Below are positions 9,417 through 52,207 of a stretch of DNA of 64,000 nt, in pieces. The stretch is from an uncultured Clostridia bacterium (lineage in GTDB: Bacteria; Bacillota; Clostridia; TANB77; CAG-508), in NCBI GenBank assembly GCA_949388605.1, contig CASKJV010000010.1, positions 1-64,000 on the forward strand. Direction: 5' to 3'. Numbering within the stretch: the first letter of the stretch is position 1; the number at the start of each line of letters is the position of its first letter. The position numbers were made by a program, and so were the translations under genes. Below the pieces are notes generated by a model that was not told where the DNA came from, ran no database searches, and worked only from the letters and a program-made list of their open reading frames with translations.

Positions 9417-10412
9417 TTAACCTTCTGCGTTCTCATAATTCCAAGCATCTCTGCAAATATCTTCTATTGATTTTTCTGTTTTCCAACCTAATTCTTTTAA
9501 AGCTTCAGAGGGATCAGCATAATTTTCTGCAATATCACCAGGTCTTCTATCAACAATTTGATAATTAACTTTTACATTATTAACCTTTTCAAAAGTAGTT
9601 ACAAGTTCTAAAACACTAATGCCTTTTCCTGATCCAAGATTATAAATATTTAATCCATCTGGTGCATTTTGAATAGCTTTTACATGCCCTTTTGCTAAAT
9701 CTACAACATGAATATAATCTCTTACTCCTGTTCCATCAATAGTTGGATAGTCATTTCCAAAAATATTTAATTTTTCTAATTTTCCACTTGCTACTTTCAT
9801 TATATATGGCATCAAATTATTTGGAATTCCATTTGGTTCTTCTCCAATTAATCCACTTTCATGTGCACCAACTGGATTGAAATACCTTAAAAGAGTAATA
9901 TTCCAAGAATTATCAGAAGCATATAAATCTTCTAGTATTTTCTCAATCATAGCCTTTGTTGTTCCATATGGATTAGTAGTTTCTCCTCTATTCATGTTTT
10001 CTGTACATTTTGGAGTCTTAGGCTCACCATATACAGTTGCAGAAGATGAAAACACAAATTTTTTAACATTATATTTTTTCATAACTTCTAATAAATTTAA
10101 TGTTGAAATTAAATTGTTTGAATAATACATTAATGGCTCTCTTACAGATTCTCCAACAGCTTTATAACCTGCAAAATGAATTACTGCGTCTATTTGATTT
10201 TCTTTAAATATTTCTTCTATTTTTTCTTTGTTACATAAGTCATATTTATATAATTTAAATTTTTTTCCTGTAATTTTTTCTAGTTTTTCTAATACGTCTT
10301 CTTTACTATTATATAAATTGTCTACAATAACAATTTCAAAGTTTGCTTTTGCAAGTTCTACTACTGTGTGTGAACCAATAAAACCTAATCCACCTGTTAC
10401 TAAGATTTTCAT
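9417..10412 (-). CDS. galE: UDP-glucose 4-epimerase
   Basis: This enzyme interconverts UDP-Glc and UDP-Gal (or the GlcNAc/GalNAc forms) in the cytosol and so supplies a hexose donor. It is a 331-residue extended short-chain dehydrogenase: the NAD-binding 'GGLGFIGSHTV' is at residues 7-17, the catalytic Tyr/Lys pair is in 'YGTTKAMIEK' near residue 150, and 'RYFNPVGAH' is the usual GalE motif. Length is normal. It lies between the nonulosonate genes and a membrane protein, all in one direction. Substrate preference cannot be read from the sequence. Confidence 0.95.
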   Translation of the reverse strand: MKILVTGGLGFIGSHTVVELAKANFEIVIVDNLYNSKEDVLEKLEKITGKKFKLYKYDLCNKEKIEEIFKENQIDAVIHFAGYKAVGESVREPLMYYSNNLISTLNLLEVMKKYNVKKFVFSSSATVYGEPKTPKCTENMNRGETTNPYGTTKAMIEKILEDLYASDNSWNITLLRYFNPVGAHESGLIGEEPNGIPNNLMPYIMKVASGKLEKLNIFGNDYPTIDGTGVRDYIHVVDLAKGHVKAIQNAPDGLNIYNLGSGKGISVLELVTTFEKVNNVKVNYQIVDRRPGDIAENYADPSEALKELGWKTEKSIEDICRDAWNYENAEG

Positions 10413-46594: not shown

Positions 46595-47107
46595 CTAGTT
46601 ATTTATTTGTTCAATATTTACTATTATTTCAATATCATCTAAATTTCCAACTAATTCATTTTTGTCTTCCCACGAAACTACTAATTTATAAGTCTTCTCA
46701 AATTCAATGTTTTTATTAATACATATTTTCTCACTTATATCTCCCCCATTTAAAAGTTTCTCTTCATTTTCACAATCATATAATTCATATTTTATTGGAA
46801 AATTGCTATTTGAATTTTTTATTTCTATAGAAAAATTTAAATCAACTTCTGTAATTATTTTTTCTTTTGATTGATTTATAATATAATTTTTCACTTTAAA
46901 ATAATATTCTTTATTTTCAGAATCTTTATCCATTTTTGCTATTACTGTATCTTGAAGTTTTTCAACTACAATTATTGGTCTTGCAATTGTTCCATTTACA
47001 AAAATCTTATTTAATATTCCATTATATTGAGCTACTGAATAGTTCTGTATAAATAGCAAAATTACTAAAGTACTAAGCAATATTTTTAATATCAGTGTCT
47101 TTTTCAA
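46595..47107 (-). CDS. Secreted TasA-like protein (170 residues)
   Basis: A signal peptide ('ILLSTLVILLFIQNYSVAQYN') is followed by a predicted beta-rich region with many Asn and Glu. 'NGTIARPIIVVEK' takes the place of the 'ARW' block of the paralogues. Its start overlaps the signal peptidase gene by 35 bases, so it is tightly linked to it. Export and cleavage by the adjacent SipW are inferred, as with TasA in Bacillus biofilms. Confidence 0.65.
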   Translation of the reverse strand: MKKTLILKILLSTLVILLFIQNYSVAQYNGILNKIFVNGTIARPIIVVEKLQDTVIAKMDKDSENKEYYFKVKNYIINQSKEKIITEVDLNFSIEIKNSNSNFPIKYELYDCENEEKLLNGGDISEKICINKNIEFEKTYKLVVSWEDKNELVGNLDDIEIIVNIEQINN

Positions 47108-47582
47108 TATACTTTCCCTCCTTCTTACAGATTATAAAATTTAAACTTATAAACAAAATTATATATATTATTACTAATGGTTTTAATAAATACATTGTGA
47201 AAAATCCTAAAATTTTAGAGTGATATATAACCTTTCCTTTTATATTATAATTTGAATTTTTTTCATCTATTATATTATTGCTATCTCCCTTAGTAATAAT
47301 ATTTTTTTCATTAATATCTATTATTCTATGTGTTATGTAACAATTATTTTTATCTTTATATGTTATAATATCACCTTTTTCATAATTTTCACTTTCTGAT
47401 ATAATTATTAATTCTCCTATTTTAATATTTGGTTCCATACTACCACTAATTACTACTAAAAAAGACTTTCCAAATATCTTTATTAAATCATCTTTCATTA
47501 TAAATTTTGAATAAAATATATTTAATAAGATTATTATTATAAAAATAATTATGAAATTATATATTATATTTTTTATTTTCAT
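47073..47582 (-). CDS. sipW: ER-type signal peptidase I (SipW-like)
   Basis: A membrane protease of 169 residues with helices at about 5-24 and 130-152. 'VVISGSMEPNIKIGELIII' carries the catalytic Ser, and 'YITHRIIDI' has His where ordinary bacterial signal peptidases have Lys, the mark of the SipW/eukaryotic type. 'ITKGDSNN' is the third block. Its neighbours are TasA-like proteins, the known substrates of SipW. The length is usual for this subtype. Confidence 0.88.
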   Translation of the reverse strand: MKIKNIIYNFIIIFIIIILLNIFYSKFIMKDDLIKIFGKSFLVVISGSMEPNIKIGELIIISESENYEKGDIITYKDKNNCYITHRIIDINEKNIITKGDSNNIIDEKNSNYNIKGKVIYHSKILGFFTMYLLKPLVIIYIILFISLNFIICKKEGKYIEKDTDIKNIA

Positions 47583-47685
47583 TTATCCTCCAAAAAAACA
47601 AATGTGGATAATATATAAGTCTGTAAAAGCCAAAATTTTACTTAATTCTCCACGTATTTATTATGTATAACTTTCTATTATATAA

Positions 47686-47815
47686 AAACCTTCTGCTAAA
47701 AATAATTAATATAGCTACTTTATATAAGTTTTATTTTTTATTTCTAATTTTCAATTTATTATTTAATACATTTTATTATTCTTAGCAGAGGGTTTTATTA
47801 AATAATCCCCTCTGT
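47686..47815 (-). promoter_or_regulatory. Alternative hairpins between the TasA-like gene and sipW
   Basis: On the minus strand CAGAGGG (about 47814) can pair with CCCTCTG (about 47790). The latter, as part of CCCTCTGCTAAGAAT, can also pair with ATTTTTAGCAGAAGG (about 47700-47688), which is followed by TTTTT. The two pairings exclude each other, so this may be an attenuator or a long-loop terminator controlling readthrough into sipW. The rest of the 324-base gap shows nothing else. Confidence 0.45.
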
Positions 47816-47906
47816 TTTTTAATATATAAAGTTTTATAGGATTTTATTGGTAATAATTATCTTTTGTATTTATAGAAAGGTAACTTAATTAATAAGCCAA
47901 AGCTTG

Positions 47907-48491
47907 TTAATTTATTTGAGCTTGTCTACCAATTATTTGTATATCAAACCCACAGTCTAAAGATGTAATATCTTCATCTACATTTAATGAAGCATCTTCG
48001 CTATCTATTAAAGTCTCATCATTTTCATTAAATGGCCAATTCCAATGAACAGCTACTATTCTTTTCTGATTATTTTTTTCAACTGGAATTATTCCTTTTA
48101 GATATTCTGTTGCTATTTCACTAAAAGAACTTTTTTCTTCTGTTACATTAATATTTCCATTTTCATCTTTTGTTTCTGCATAAAATTTCATGTTTCTTGG
48201 AATATTTTTTTCATTATTAACTTTTATTTCATATTCAACTGCAACTTCAGAGTCTGTAGCATCAACTTCAATTTCAAATTGACCGTTAGAGCCTGGAGCA
48301 ATTTTTTCATTTGATAAGTTAATATTAGTTTCCATATTTTTTGAATTAAAAGACCATCTAGCAATACTTGCTTGTGCTACTCCTGCATTAATAGCTTTAT
48401 AGTATCTAGCAAAAGTATATCCTGCTAAAAACATACTTGAAATTAGAGTTATACAAACCAATACTCCAATTACTCTTTTTTTATTTTTCAC
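47907..48491 (-). CDS. TasA/camelysin-like secreted protein (194 residues)
   Basis: A signal peptide ('VLVCITLISSMFLAGYTFA') is followed by 'RYYKAINAGVAQASIARWSFN', which matches the N-terminal pattern of TasA/CalY proteins cleaved by SipW, and a beta-sandwich-like body ('IAPGSNGQFEIEVDATDSEVAVEY'). It is probably a cell-surface or matrix protein. It leads the operon; sipW and three shorter relatives follow. A GC-richer leader lies upstream. Confidence 0.78.
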   Translation of the reverse strand: MKNKKRVIGVLVCITLISSMFLAGYTFARYYKAINAGVAQASIARWSFNSKNMETNINLSNEKIAPGSNGQFEIEVDATDSEVAVEYEIKVNNEKNIPRNMKFYAETKDENGNINVTEEKSSFSEIATEYLKGIIPVEKNNQKRIVAVHWNWPFNENDETLIDSEDASLNVDEDITSLDCGFDIQIIGRQAQIN

Positions 48492-48579
48492 AAAACCTCC
48501 TTATATAAAATTTAAGTTAAATATTAAAACTATATTTTTTTAAAATTTTATGATTATTAGTTTAGGGGCATAAAACAAA

Positions 48580-48720
48580 CTATCACATGAATTAAATTTT
48601 TAGACAAATTTTCCGTGCTTGGGGGCGCAACAAAAAAACATATAATTTTATTATTTAATTTTTATTTTTTGGAAATCGATAAATATCAGAACGATATTTA
48701 TGTTTTAGATTATTAAAATA
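48580..48720 (-). promoter_or_regulatory. Unidentified GC-rich leader upstream of the TasA-like gene
   Basis: Within otherwise A/T sequence, GTTGCGCCCCCAAGCACGG (minus strand, near 48635-48617) and AAACATAAATATCGTTCTGA with the palindrome AAATATC/GATATTT (near 48700-48680) stand out, and GCCCC recurs near 48567. Placed 130-220 bases before the gene start, it could be an untranslated leader with RNA structure. It matches no riboswitch class I can recall. Confidence 0.3.
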
Positions 48721-48814
48721 CAGTTAAAATATTTAACTTGTTGTGAATTATAGCACCATATTTTTTATTTGTAAATACTTTTTTCAATTTTTTTTATTTT
48801 TTTATAAAAAAGTA

Positions 48815-48843
48815 TTGACTTTTGTTAACATAAGTAGTATACT
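48815..48843 (+). promoter_or_regulatory. Sigma-A promoter of the mini-ORF array
   Basis: TTGACT, a 17-base spacer and TATACT are followed about 60 bases later by AGGAGGG and the first ATG (48906). A small stem GGGC/GCCC (48856-48865) lies near the expected 5' end. Confidence 0.8.
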
Positions 48844-48905
48844 AATAATTGTAAGGGGCACAGCCCTATAACAGACCAATATATACAACAAGGAGGGATT
48901 ACAAT

Positions 48906-48956
48906 ATGAGCAGAGGTCCAAATTCAAATGGTTCTTTGAAAATTAAATTAAATTAA
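48906..48956 (+). CDS. Mini-gene 1: 16-residue peptide
   Basis: The frame encodes MSRGPNSNGSLKIKLN and has AGGAGGG nine bases upstream. Its last codons lie in a perfect four-fold repeat of the pentamer AATTA (48940-48960). Removing one pentamer would extend the frame by 13 basic residues (YAARRRKAFGGKL) to a TGA that overlaps the ATG of mini-gene 2, so its length could vary between cells. Function is unknown. Confidence 0.6.
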   Translation: MSRGPNSNGSLKIKLN

Positions 48957-48996
48957 ATTACGCAGCGCGCCGGCGGAAGGCGTTCGGAGGTAAACT

Positions 48997-49023
48997 ATGA
49001 ATAATATTCGGGATCAGACGTAA
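48997..49023 (+). CDS. Mini-gene 2: octapeptide MNNIRDQT
   Basis: An eight-codon frame with GGAGG (48986-48990) six bases upstream, preceded by a very GC-rich stretch. The last five codons and the following bases are the same as in mini-genes 4 and 5 (CGGGATCAGACGTAAG). Confidence 0.65.
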   Translation: MNNIRDQT

Positions 49024-49111
49024 GCATTTCAAAAAAAAATGATTGTGGCGCAATGGCGCCGGCTTATCTGAATTTATCGGCGAATGCCAAATATCTCAAG
49101 GAGGTAAATCC

Positions 49112-49138
49112 ATGTGGCGGATTAGAGATCAGACGTAA
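49112..49138 (+). CDS. Mini-gene 3: octapeptide MWRIRDQT
   Basis: An eight-codon frame with AAGGAGG eight bases upstream. Arg-3 is CGG and Arg-5 is AGA, the reverse of mini-genes 4 and 5 (AGA, CGG). Such double synonymous swaps favour conservation of the peptide over the RNA. Confidence 0.68.
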   Translation: MWRIRDQT

Positions 49139-49203
49139 GAATTTCTAAAAAAAGAAAATTTTTATAATTTAGCGACGCCCCACCAGCCAGAGAGCAGGTT
49201 TAA

Positions 49204-49266
49204 ATGGACGCTGAAGGTAGAAAACAAACTAAAATATCGCATCGGATTGCGAGGAGAATGCCATGA
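49204..49266 (+). CDS. Possible 20-residue basic peptide overlapping mini-gene 4
   Basis: The frame would encode MDAEGRKQTKISHRIARRMP, and its TGA overlaps the ATG of mini-gene 4 (ATGA). The two T/C differences between copies A and B are both silent here (Ala GCT/GCC, His CAT/CAC). The only ribosome-site candidate is a weak GCAGG. Tentative. Confidence 0.3.
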   Translation: MDAEGRKQTKISHRIARRMP

Positions 49267-49289
49267 TTAGAATTCGGGATCAGACGTAA
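49263..49289 (+). CDS. Mini-gene 4: octapeptide MIRIRDQT
   Basis: An eight-codon frame with GAGGAG five to six bases upstream; a five-pair stem (TCGCA/TGCGA) ends right at the ribosome site and could hide it. It lies in copy A of the 150-base duplication. Confidence 0.68.
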   Translation: MIRIRDQT

Positions 49290-49353
49290 GTATTTCAATA
49301 AAAAGAAAATTTTTATTATTTAGCGACGCCCACCAGCCAGAGAGCAGGTTTAA

Positions 49354-49416
49354 ATGGACGCCGAAGGTAGAAAACAAACTAAAATATCGCACCGGATTGC
49401 GAGGAGAATGCCATGA
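49354..49416 (+). CDS. Possible 20-residue basic peptide overlapping mini-gene 5
   Basis: Same peptide as the frame at 49204, with two silent differences, and the same ATGA overlap with the following mini-gene. Tentative, since it lacks a strong ribosome site. Confidence 0.3.
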   Translation: MDAEGRKQTKISHRIARRMP

Positions 49417-49439
49417 TTAGAATTCGGGATCAGACGTAA
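49413..49439 (+). CDS. Mini-gene 5: octapeptide MIRIRDQT
   Basis: Same sequence as mini-gene 4, in copy B of the duplication, with the same ribosome site and leader stem. Confidence 0.68.
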   Translation: MIRIRDQT

Positions 49440-49463
49440 GTATTTTGTGATATCGGCGAGAAT

Positions 49464-49565
49464 ATGGATTATATGCGCGAATATGCGAGAATATGGGCGG
49501 AGAAACCGCCAAATTTAAAAACCGGAAAACGCACCAGCTTTGGGCGTACAAGGAGAGCAAAATGA
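49464..49565 (+). CDS. Possible 33-residue basic peptide overlapping mini-gene 6
   Basis: This frame from an ATG at 49464 ends with KRTSFGRTRRAK and a TGA that overlaps the ATG of mini-gene 6 (ATGA). GGCGAG lies three to eight bases upstream, a weak ribosome site. It would parallel the basic frames before mini-genes 4 and 5. Tentative. Confidence 0.3.
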   Translation: MDYMREYARIWAEKPPNLKTGKRTSFGRTRRAK

Positions 49566-49591
49566 ATAGAATACGGGATAGAACCAAATAA
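49562..49591 (+). CDS. Mini-gene 6: nonapeptide MNRIRDRTK
   Basis: The last and most diverged member, with AAGGAGAG seven bases upstream. It uses ATA for Ile, AGA at position 7 and ends ACC AAA TAA, so nucleotide identity to the others is lower while the M-x-R-I-R-D-x-T pattern holds. A terminator follows 12 bases later. Confidence 0.68.
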   Translation: MNRIRDRTK

Positions 49592-49603
49592 TTTGAATTT
49601 GTA

Positions 49604-49628
49604 AAAAGGATGCTTTTAGCATCCTTTT
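49604..49628. terminator. Terminator shared by the mini-gene array and glgP
   Basis: An 11-pair stem AAAAGGATGCT/AGCATCCTTTT with loop TTT is followed by CTTTTTTATTT on the plus strand and TTTTTAC on the minus strand. It separates the two convergent units. Confidence 0.9.
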
Positions 49629-49645
49629 CTTTTTTATTTATATAA

Positions 49646-52207
49646 TTATTTTGTAATCCATTTTACTAAATTTAGATTTTCTGCATCCATTAGCATTTCA
49701 TGTTTTGGCATAACTCTAAAAGTATATCCAAAATTTCCACCAGATTTTAAATCTATTACTGCTTCATAATTATATTTATGTTCTTCTTTATTTTCAGAAA
49801 TTTTATTCATTGTACAAGTATACACATTTCTAACAGTTCCATTATCTAAAAATTGTCCAAAATAAACTTGTATATCTGTATTTTCTTCATCTATATTTGG
49901 AAGATATACTTCACAGTTAACTGTAATTTGTGTTCCAGCAACTAACTTAGCATTATCTACATTTCTATCTTGTGTAATTACTATTTTATCCCAATTTTCT
50001 TTAATATTACTTTTCCATTTTGTAAATTGCCCTACTTTTTCTAAATCATCAAAATGAGCTCTTTTTAAATCACAAAGTGGCATATATAGATTTCTTACAT
50101 AATCTGTAACCATTCTAGCTGTACTATATTTTCCACCAGTAGTCCTAATAGAATTCTTCATATAAGTTAACCATTCTTTAGAAACTCCATTATTATTTTG
50201 ATTATAATATGCAGGAATAATTTTATTTTCTAATGTATGATATAAACTATTGCTATCAGCTTTATCTTGTTCTTCATATGAATTATATTGAGCATTTGTA
50301 CCAATAGTCCATCCGTTAGTTCCATCGTATCCTTCACACCACCAACCATCTAATACACTAAAGTTTATAACTCCATTTACTGATGCTTTTTCACCTGATG
50401 TACCAGAAGCTTCCATTGGTCTTCTTGGATTATTTAACCAAACATCAACACCACTAATTAAATATCTTGATATTCCTATGTTATAATTTTCAAGTATGAA
50501 AATTTTTCCTTTAAATTGTGGCATTAATGAAATTTCATGAATATATTTTATTAAATCTTGACCTTCTTTATCTGCTGGATGAGCTTTTCCTGCAAATACT
50601 AATTGAACAGGTCTTTTTTCATCATTTAATATTTGTGTAAGTCTTGCTATATCTTTAAAAATTAAAGTTGCTCTCTTATATGTAGCGAATCTTCTTGCAA
50701 ATCCAATAGTTAAAGCTTTTGGATTTAATTTATTAACAACTTCTGCAATTTCATCATAACCAATTCCACTATTAACATATCTTTCTGTGATATTTTGTTT
50801 TAATAGTCTCATTAATTTTTCTTTTCTTACAATATGTTCAGCCCATAATCTATCATCTGGTATATTATTTATTTTTTCCCATGTTGAATCAAGCTCAATT
50901 TTGTCTTGCCAATATGGTGGTAAATATTCATTAAATAATTCTTTTATATTTGGTGCAAGCCATGAACAAGTATGAATTCCATTTGTTACATAAGTAATTG
51001 GTGATTCATCTTCTGCAATATTTGGCCAAACATCACTGAATAATTCTCTAGAAACTTCACCATGTAATTTACTTACACCATTCTTTTTCCCTGCAACTTT
51101 TAAAGCAAGAATTCCCATATTAAATCCAGGCTCTAATTCATCTCCTGGCATTCCCATTTTCAAAAATTCTTCTTTTGTAATTCCAAGTGTATCCCAGAAA
51201 CCATTAAAATATTTTTCAACTAACCATAAGTCAAATATATCATTTCCTGCTGGAACTGGAGTATGAGTGGTAAAGACTGTTTTTACTGTAGCTATTTCTC
51301 TTGCCATTTCAAAAGAAACTTGTTTTTCTTTCATAATATTTTTTATTAATTCTAATATTAAGAATGATGAATGTCCTTCATTCATATGGTATACAGATGG
51401 TTCATATCCTAATGTTTTTAGAAGTTTTACTCCTGCCATACCTAAAACGATTTCTTGACGAATTCTCATTTCTTTATCTCCACCATATAAGCGAAGTGTA
51501 ATTCCTCTAAAATCTTCATCATTTTTTTCTATATCAGAGTCCATTAAATATAATTTTATTCTACCAACATTTATTTGCCATACTTTTAAATAAAGAGTTC
51601 TATTATCCATTGGAATATCAATTATTACATCATCCCCTACATTATCTTTAACAGTAGTAATTGGTAAATTATATAAATCTATATTATGATATTCTGAACA
51701 TTGTTCTCCACGAGAATTAATTTTTTGATGAAAATATCCATTTTTATATAATAATCCAACAGCAACAAAAGGTAATCCTAAATCACTAGCTGATTTTAAA
51801 TGATCACCAGATAAAATACCTAATCCACCTGAATAAATTGGTAAAATTTCATCTAAACCATATTCAGCTGAAAAATATGCAATTAAATCATTTTTATTAT
51901 TTGGGTAATTTTTATTAAACCAAGTATCTGTGCTGTTAATATAATTTTCATAATTATTAGCTATAATATCATATTCTTTTAAAAATTTTTGATCATTAGT
52001 AATTTCTTCTATTTTTTCTTGGCTAATCATTTTTAGAAATTTAACTGGATTCTTTTCGCTAGCTTCCCATAAATCGTTGTCTATTGATTCAAATAATCTT
52101 AAAAATTCAGTATTCCATGACCACCATAAATTATTAGCAATTTCTGAAAGCTTTGCTATTCTAGTTGGAAGTTGTGGAACAACTGTTACTCTATTGAATA
52201 TATACAT
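49646..52207 (-). CDS. glgP: Alpha-glucan (glycogen/maltodextrin) phosphorylase
   Basis: This PLP enzyme releases glucose-1-phosphate from storage glucan. The 853-residue form begins with a DUF3417-type N-terminal part ('LSEIANNLWWSWNTEFLRLF'), followed by 'AYFSAEYGLDEILPIYSGGLGILSGDHLKSA', typical of the TIGR02094-like subfamily. The PLP lysine lies in 'GTSGEKASVNGVINFS' near residue 606. The last 110 residues form a small beta domain ('EVYLPNIDEENTDIQVYFGQ'). It is a single gene. Confidence 0.94.
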   Translation of the reverse strand: MYIFNRVTVVPQLPTRIAKLSEIANNLWWSWNTEFLRLFESIDNDLWEASEKNPVKFLKMISQEKIEEITNDQKFLKEYDIIANNYENYINSTDTWFNKNYPNNKNDLIAYFSAEYGLDEILPIYSGGLGILSGDHLKSASDLGLPFVAVGLLYKNGYFHQKINSRGEQCSEYHNIDLYNLPITTVKDNVGDDVIIDIPMDNRTLYLKVWQINVGRIKLYLMDSDIEKNDEDFRGITLRLYGGDKEMRIRQEIVLGMAGVKLLKTLGYEPSVYHMNEGHSSFLILELIKNIMKEKQVSFEMAREIATVKTVFTTHTPVPAGNDIFDLWLVEKYFNGFWDTLGITKEEFLKMGMPGDELEPGFNMGILALKVAGKKNGVSKLHGEVSRELFSDVWPNIAEDESPITYVTNGIHTCSWLAPNIKELFNEYLPPYWQDKIELDSTWEKINNIPDDRLWAEHIVRKEKLMRLLKQNITERYVNSGIGYDEIAEVVNKLNPKALTIGFARRFATYKRATLIFKDIARLTQILNDEKRPVQLVFAGKAHPADKEGQDLIKYIHEISLMPQFKGKIFILENYNIGISRYLISGVDVWLNNPRRPMEASGTSGEKASVNGVINFSVLDGWWCEGYDGTNGWTIGTNAQYNSYEEQDKADSNSLYHTLENKIIPAYYNQNNNGVSKEWLTYMKNSIRTTGGKYSTARMVTDYVRNLYMPLCDLKRAHFDDLEKVGQFTKWKSNIKENWDKIVITQDRNVDNAKLVAGTQITVNCEVYLPNIDEENTDIQVYFGQFLDNGTVRNVYTCTMNKISENKEEHKYNYEAVIDLKSGGNFGYTFRVMPKHEMLMDAENLNLVKWITK

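Follow-up and report, generated by a model that had tools for sequence, protein, structure and literature searches.

Tandem arrays of very short open reading frames with a shared peptide core and a rare arginine codon in one order of Clostridia

Genes of only a few codons slip past annotation. The DNA analysed here, called the window, is a stretch of 64,000 nt (contig CASKJV010000010.1) from an uncultured Clostridia bacterium whose 2.1-Mb assembly is designated G000. At 48815-49628 on its forward strand lie a promoter-like site, six very short open reading frames (mini-ORFs), each led by a Shine-Dalgarno (SD) ribosome site, and a terminator, with no ordinary gene inside. We call such a unit an array. 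Four more arrays were found in the same order, and all five are described below together with the amino-acid and codon features that recur among their mini-ORFs.

The array in the window

The features of the array are as follows.

48815..48843, forward strand: promoter-like site TTGACT-17 bp-TATACT, 10 of 12 consensus bases
48906..48956, forward strand: mini-ORF 1, MSRGPNSNGSLKIKLN, SD AAGGAGGG at 48890-48897; no CGG codon; RGPN where R-[DG]-x-[PT] stands in the other mini-ORFs
48997..49023, forward strand: mini-ORF 2, MNNIRDQT, SD GGAGG at 48986; CGG is codon 5
49112..49138, forward strand: mini-ORF 3, MWRIRDQT, SD AAGGAGG at 49098; codon 3 CGG, codon 5 AGA
49179..49295, forward strand: 117-nt repeat, copy 1 (spacer and mini-ORF 4)
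49263..49289, forward strand: mini-ORF 4, MIRIRDQT, SD GAGGAG at 49251; codon 3 AGA, codon 5 CGG
49329..49445, forward strand: 117-nt repeat, copy 2 (spacer and mini-ORF 5), 98% identity to copy 1
49413..49439, forward strand: mini-ORF 5, MIRIRDQT, DNA identical to mini-ORF 4
49562..49591, forward strand: mini-ORF 6, MNRIRDRTK, SD AAGGAG at 49550; CGG once (codon 5), AGA twice
49604..49628, forward strand: intrinsic terminator, 11-pair stem then U-rich tail, beginning 12 bases past the last stop

The array is confirmed as an observation: promoter, six SD-led mini-ORFs, terminator 12 bases past the last of them and absence of an ordinary gene are all where the original prediction had placed them. 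The two-base silent swap of Arg codons that it reported is also real, MWRIRDQT having CGG then AGA and MIRIRDQT having AGA then CGG. Five of the six mini-ORFs encode 8 or 9 residues (several in other arrays are longer), and the spacers have a G+C content of 0.43 against 0.25 across the window.

Clustering on this scale is not expected by chance. Against the six SD-led ORFs of 5-20 residues observed, 2000 dinucleotide shuffles gave four once and five never. On the forward strand of the window the six of the array are all the SD-led ORFs of this size that are present; the reverse strand has 15, which are scattered, with a maximum of two per 800 bp. A scan of 464 kb of G000 (the window and 20 stretches of 20 kb) found no further cluster of at least three outside ORFs of at least 90 residues, and a single cluster of two; because ORFs of that size are masked on either strand, some arrays would escape the scan, as one of the further arrays (G326) does.

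Further arrays and what they share

Five stand-alone arrays are now known in one order, in genomes G000 (the window), G067, G326, G395 and G007, and each is a unit without an ordinary gene that holds two to six mini-ORFs. Coverage of the order was 526 entries (G000-G525), each pattern being run on a subset, and arrays with other spacings would escape these patterns. The pattern M-x-x-I-R-D-Q-T-stop matched G000 and one of 95 other genomes of the order (G067, from another family). A looser pattern matched three of 385 genomes, with no control matches. Dropping the Ile gave matches in eight of 385 genomes, with eight control matches, and added one array (G395); five other new matches begin or lie within ORFs of 106 to 422 residues and were rejected. 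The pattern M-x-R-x-R-D-x-[TP] was run over 22 genomes congeneric with G395 (two matched, both already known), over 36 genomes of the family of G067 (two matched, G067 and one with Ser replacing the second Arg) and over 390 genomes of the window's family (six matched, with one control match), the last of which yielded the array of G007, a member of the window's own genus. The mini-ORFs of the four further arrays are:

G067: MTRGHPKKKETCKKS, MIRIRDQT, MAVKSRFRTRDRPV, MNYNPRDGPL
G326: a 37-residue ORF containing NRGTT, then MHRIRDQTS
G395: MNRPRDHPKDEGTLIKFFSENS, MNRPRDSPKEG
G007: MMKRKKFKARDSPT, MVRARDSPSNR

The original prediction was to fall if no other genome had the array; with four further arrays in hand, it does not fall on that ground. 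DNA matches between arrays are short only, the best being 17 nt within a mini-ORF. The array DNA of the window had no extended match among 56 relatives, where the best match outside G000 was 31 nt (E 7.5e-5).

Good promoters precede three of the five arrays. Those of G067 and G326 have 12 of 12 consensus bases with 17-bp spacing, and that of G395 has 11 of 12; letter shuffles equalled them in 0/300, 0/300 and 1/300 cases, respectively. A terminator-like hairpin follows each array, found by script in four (7-25 nt past the last stop) and by eye in G007. The gene beyond the terminator is convergent in the window and in G067.

Shared core. The sequence R-[DG]-x-[PT] occurs in 14 of the 15 distinct mini-ORFs (15 of 16 counting the duplicate); only MSRGPNSNGS departs from it, with RGPN. 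Spacing around the core is loose: Met and the core Arg are separated by 1 to 9 residues, and 0 to 23 more come after the core. The fourth core residue is Thr in seven of the 14 cores. Since some ORFs had been selected for the motif by the searches, the test of the core was restricted to the six ORFs in which no fetching pattern demanded it. The core is present in five of these, whereas host ORFs contain it 26 times in 116268 residues (P 1.3e-12, only indicative because the G, P and T alternatives were fixed post hoc). MIRIRDQT of the window and MIRIRDQT of G067 differ at five synonymous positions and in no amino acid. By inspection the mini-ORFs are hydrophilic and contain Arg and Asp, and no hydrophobic secretion leader was seen by eye in any of the 15. 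The peptide had been proposed as the conserved entity. The amino-acid pattern is indeed kept; the conserved unit is the core and not the octapeptide, and there is a signal at the synonymous level too.

Codon rule. That signal lies in CGG, which occurs exactly once in each of the 12 distinct mini-ORFs with an Arg-Asp (R-D) core. CGG makes up 12 of the 26 Arg codons of these mini-ORFs, versus 45 of 3496 (1.3%) in 328 ORFs of G000 (Fisher P 8e-16), and given 12 CGG among 26 Arg codons, a distribution of one per ORF has a permutation P of 0.0005. In nine of the 12 the CGG encodes the Arg before Asp; in three it encodes an upstream Arg, with AGA before Asp. Rare codons in general are enriched across the 15 ORFs (P 0.0002, the lowest value that 5000 samples allow); taken singly, 12 ORFs are at <0.05 and 14 at <0.08. 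The enrichment holds where spacers are AT-rich (G+C 0.30 in G067, 0.28 in G007), and the core Asp is GAT in 12 of 12. Both observations, the constant GAT for the core Asp and the AT-rich spacers of two arrays, disfavour a general foreign origin of the mini-ORF codons. Around the arrays (18-19 kb each) the share of CGG among Arg codons is 7/138 (5%) in G007, 1/146 in G395, 1/123 in G326 and 0/172 in G067.

No Arg(CCG) tRNA is among the 34 typed tRNAs of G000 (150 of 161 candidates scored), where the Arg anticodons are TCT, ACG and CCT only. In 23 genomes of the order, a fixed Arg(CCG) tRNA pattern, whose structural part recovers 19 of 30 distinct G000 tRNAs (for Arg, two of three), matched a single sequence, which ARAGORN did not call a tRNA. 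The codon CGG is unassigned in Mycoplasma capricolum and reassigned in other low-G+C bacteria, according to the available part of PMC8629427; the arrays offer a direct test of a nearly unused codon put to work in a low-G+C genome.

Readings of the arrays

The arrays are real, conserved and outside every family tested. Minigenes, arrest cores and leaderless peptides, their building blocks, are each known already; stand-alone tandem arrays made only of minigenes were not found in the open-access literature searched, and what was searched held no receptor, enzyme or known RNA family for them. A family of minigene arrays that is constrained in its amino acids as well as in its codons would reveal either a new control of translation capacity or a class of leaderless hydrophilic signals that has gone unrecognised. 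Three roles had been put forward for the window array: signal, modified peptide and translation-titrating minigenes. We favour the last, and none is proved.

Constraint on amino acids and codons jointly points to the act of translation. The reading we prefer, with a probability of roughly 0.4, is that the array consists of stall- or drop-off-prone minigenes that load and slow ribosomes near the start codon, as a translation decoy. The promoter would give a short transcript bearing two to six strong ribosome-binding sites, and at each site a ribosome would initiate, add a few residues and reach an inefficient stretch. In the R-D minigenes this stretch would be CGG, nearly unused in G000 and with a cognate tRNA that was not found; in nearly all the minigenes it would also be Arg-(Asp/Gly)-x-(Pro/Thr), which is similar to the SecM/RAPP arrest core. 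The ribosome would pause, or the short peptidyl-tRNA would drop off, and the message would stop at the terminator just past the last minigene. The product would be an event, the occupation of ribosomes and tRNA, and no protein, with the strength of the decoy set by copy number. What is shown is the arrays, their core, the CGG rule, the enrichment of rare codons, the good promoters of three arrays and the nearby terminators; that ribosomes initiate and pause, and that titration is the purpose of the array, is inferred from these.

In the available portions of the papers cited, the arrest core is (R/Q/H)-(A/G/D)-(P/G/S)-(P/G), RDGP being one of the motifs selected (PMC10987492); its Arg is irreplaceable, Gly is tolerated and Asp partly so (PMC12992588); and a minimal RxPP is reported as enough for arrest (PMC10951233). 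The arrays resemble these RAPP/SecM (RQH) peptides in an Arg-(Gly/Asp)-x-Pro core, and MNYNPRDGPL has the exact RDGP; they differ in having few residues before the core, Thr at its end in half of the cases, tandem copies and no regulated downstream gene (PMC10987492, PMC12992588 and PMC10951233, each in the portion available). On the side of drop-off, minigenes provoke it together with tRNA shortage, and titles cited in the accessible part of PMC8012679 deal with NGG codons and with hungry codons close to the start; early in an ORF, drop-off is favoured by a hungry codon in the A site (PMC10192219, from an excerpt). The lambda bar and hungry-codon minigenes (PMC8012679, same part) are, like ours, tiny ORFs in which a rare or hungry codon comes soon after the start and drop-off is expected; the R-D mini-ORFs have just this make-up, being very short and SD-led and having their CGG at codon 3 or 5 in nine of the 12. 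Compared with those minigenes as described there, the arrays are longer (8-37 residues), tandem (two to six), chromosomal and conserved in their core, and drop-off in them is only expected.

Several points weigh against the decoy reading. On the expression side, the window promoter is equalled by 46/300 letter shuffles of the upstream 160 nt, and the G007 array has no recognisable promoter. On the codon side, CGG stands at codon 6 in two of the R-D mini-ORFs and at codon 10 in one; the three R-G mini-ORFs, the first in the window, G067 and G326 arrays, have no CGG; no bias towards rare codons is seen in MSRGPNSNGS (P 0.45); in the surroundings of the G007 array CGG is less rare; and the codon tests applied G000 usage to every array. 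The 45 CGG codons in the 328 G000 ORFs (from 464 kb) imply that CGG is decoded somehow or that some of these ORFs are spurious, and the tRNA set of G000 is incomplete, since an Ala tRNA and an Ile(GAT) tRNA were not found in it either. As to the core, the region preceding it matters for arrest, and most RAPP-like sequences from E. coli and B. subtilis that were tested failed to stall, so far as the available text of PMC10987492 goes. Only 1-9 residues after Met precede the core in the arrays. Thr replaces Pro in seven of 14 cores, and four cores strictly fit the arrest motif as it appears in the portions of the papers available, RDGP in one ORF and RDSP in three; RDHP, RGHP, RDRP, RDQT, RDRT, RGTT and RGPN do not. 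Known arrest peptides control a downstream gene, and the array units contain none.

A stronger form of the proposal is doubtful in our estimation. It holds that uncultivated Clostridia have a class of transcripts made solely to be translated badly, in which CGG, as a codon that lacks a cognate tRNA, is joined to an arrest-like R-(D/G)-x-(P/T), and that these transcripts titrate ribosomes or tRNA or sense a foreign, for example phage-borne, CGG-reading tRNA. The related idea that the transcript is purely a sensor, in which translation of the minigenes reports charged Arg tRNA or a foreign (e.g. phage) CGG-reading tRNA and stalled ribosomes alter the fate of transcript or terminator, we rate as quite improbable. 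The rare CGG suits it, as does the terminator that in four of the five arrays begins 7-25 nt past the last stop; the next gene in the window and in G067 is convergent, so read-through would have no obvious target there. Nor do we give much credence to the RNA itself as the product, a structured RNA whose ORFs would be by-products of a motif around CGGGAUNNN(A/C)C. The core does read CGGGATNNN(A/C)C in nine of the 12 R-D mini-ORFs, but in the other three it starts AGA GAT, and start, SD, frame and stop are all present in every case. The window spacers are G+C-rich and, compared with 20 shuffles, the 775-nt RNA has a better fold (z -2.4), but spacers are dissimilar between arrays and without extended match in the 56 relatives. 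No common hairpin around SD or core was found across the mini-ORFs, and a shared hairpin sequestering the SD was not seen. Rfam gave no match at gathering score in the window and two weak sub-threshold matches on 48450-49700. A peptide product of the modified kind, that is, a very short ribosomally synthesized and post-translationally modified peptide (RiPP) precursor or one otherwise functional, matured by enzymes encoded elsewhere, is also quite improbable. Precursors of seven residues exist, as in microcin C, and among RiPPs it is common for a precursor with a fixed core to occur in several copies. The microcin C precursor MccA is encoded by a seven-codon gene and ends in Asn; one of the 15 distinct mini-ORFs has a C-terminal Asn. 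No modification or maturation gene was recognised beside the arrays, from ORF lists and sequence by eye with no dedicated enzyme search, the leader is not uniform, the C-termini are variable, and the CGG rule is left unexplained.

The remaining alternative, and the main rival of the decoy reading, is that the mini-ORFs encode leaderless signalling peptides, short hydrophilic ligands for an intracellular receptor that act directly or after trimming, with tandem copies raising the dose. It is unlikely in our judgement, and it does account for constant amino acids with varying codons. Octapeptide length, the absence of a leader and a ribosome site before an ORF of about 24 bp recall the leaderless communication peptides (LCP/SIP), which have about eight residues (PMC10518010, in the part available), and the core is like the Phr pentapeptides PhrC ERGMT and PhrA ARNQT, which resemble R-(D/G)-x-(T/P) (PMC3601965, likewise in part). 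LCPs, as that portion of PMC10518010 describes them, are highly hydrophobic and adjoin a RopB-type receptor; the array peptides are hydrophilic and tandem, and a RopB/Rgg-type neighbour was not recognised. Their variable tails on either side of the core speak against an untrimmed ligand. Unlike the Phr/Rap systems in the accessible text of PMC3601965, the arrays have no secretion leader, no adjoining tetratricopeptide repeat (TPR) receptor of 250-500 residues and no Rap in the part searched, where Rap tblastn was without a match at E 1 in 464 kb of G000 and seven other stretches. When the five array genomes were searched for TPR_12, a search that leaves receptor types undetectable by TPR_12 outside its reach, each yielded one protein, with N-terminal membrane segments by eye and on a contig other than that of the array. 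The one-CGG rule is not explained by a signal either. As a separate observation, a gene judged by eye to be dipicolinate-synthase-like directly follows this membrane TPR protein in L141, L142, L144 and L145, four of the five array genomes; in L143 the TPR protein has another neighbour.

Matches beyond the order and neighbouring genes

No array was found outside the order in a broad scan of genome contigs or in a class sample of 391 genomes. Among the 11 matches of the broad scan, two are the G067 and G326 arrays. The nine others were dismissed: eight lie within an open frame of at least 100 codons, and none has a second core-bearing mini-ORF within 700 nt. The class sample (18 genomes in the order, 373 outside) was scanned with a CGGGAT-centred pattern, which matched 19 genomes, with four control matches; all 20 of the matches outside G000 lie within an open frame of at least 100 codons and lack an independent second core-bearing mini-ORF within 700 nt. 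Applied to the arrays of the window, G067 and G326, the same second-mini-ORF test does pick up the neighbouring mini-ORFs.

A phage or plasmid element was rejected as a source, the best matches being to eight phage records at E 0.06-0.8 and to one plasmid record at E 0.7, each over about 5% of the query. Of three viral pattern scans two were empty; the third gave seven matches, all reading I-S-D-Q-T without the Arg, and six of the seven inside a longer open frame. MWMRIRFRW in L136 was rejected as lying out of frame within a small Cys-rich gene. That gene (10190-10315, forward strand) encodes a small Gly/Cys-rich protein that starts MPENRGCGCGCGFGFGG, and has its own ribosome site and a hairpin with a T run downstream.

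The neighbours of the five arrays are unrelated. The window array lies among glycogen phosphorylase, a signal-peptidase-like cluster and proteins without Pfam match; for the others, neighbours named by eye are prfA (G067), lexA (G326), rubrerythrin (G395) and ssb (G007). The cluster in the window (46595-48491, reverse strand) has three genes, is divergent from the array with about 320 bp between them, and encodes a signal-peptidase-like protein (Pfam S24 and S26, below curated cut-offs) and two secreted-looking proteins without Pfam match. By eye it was judged SipW/TasA-like, and a regulatory link between it and the array is possible.

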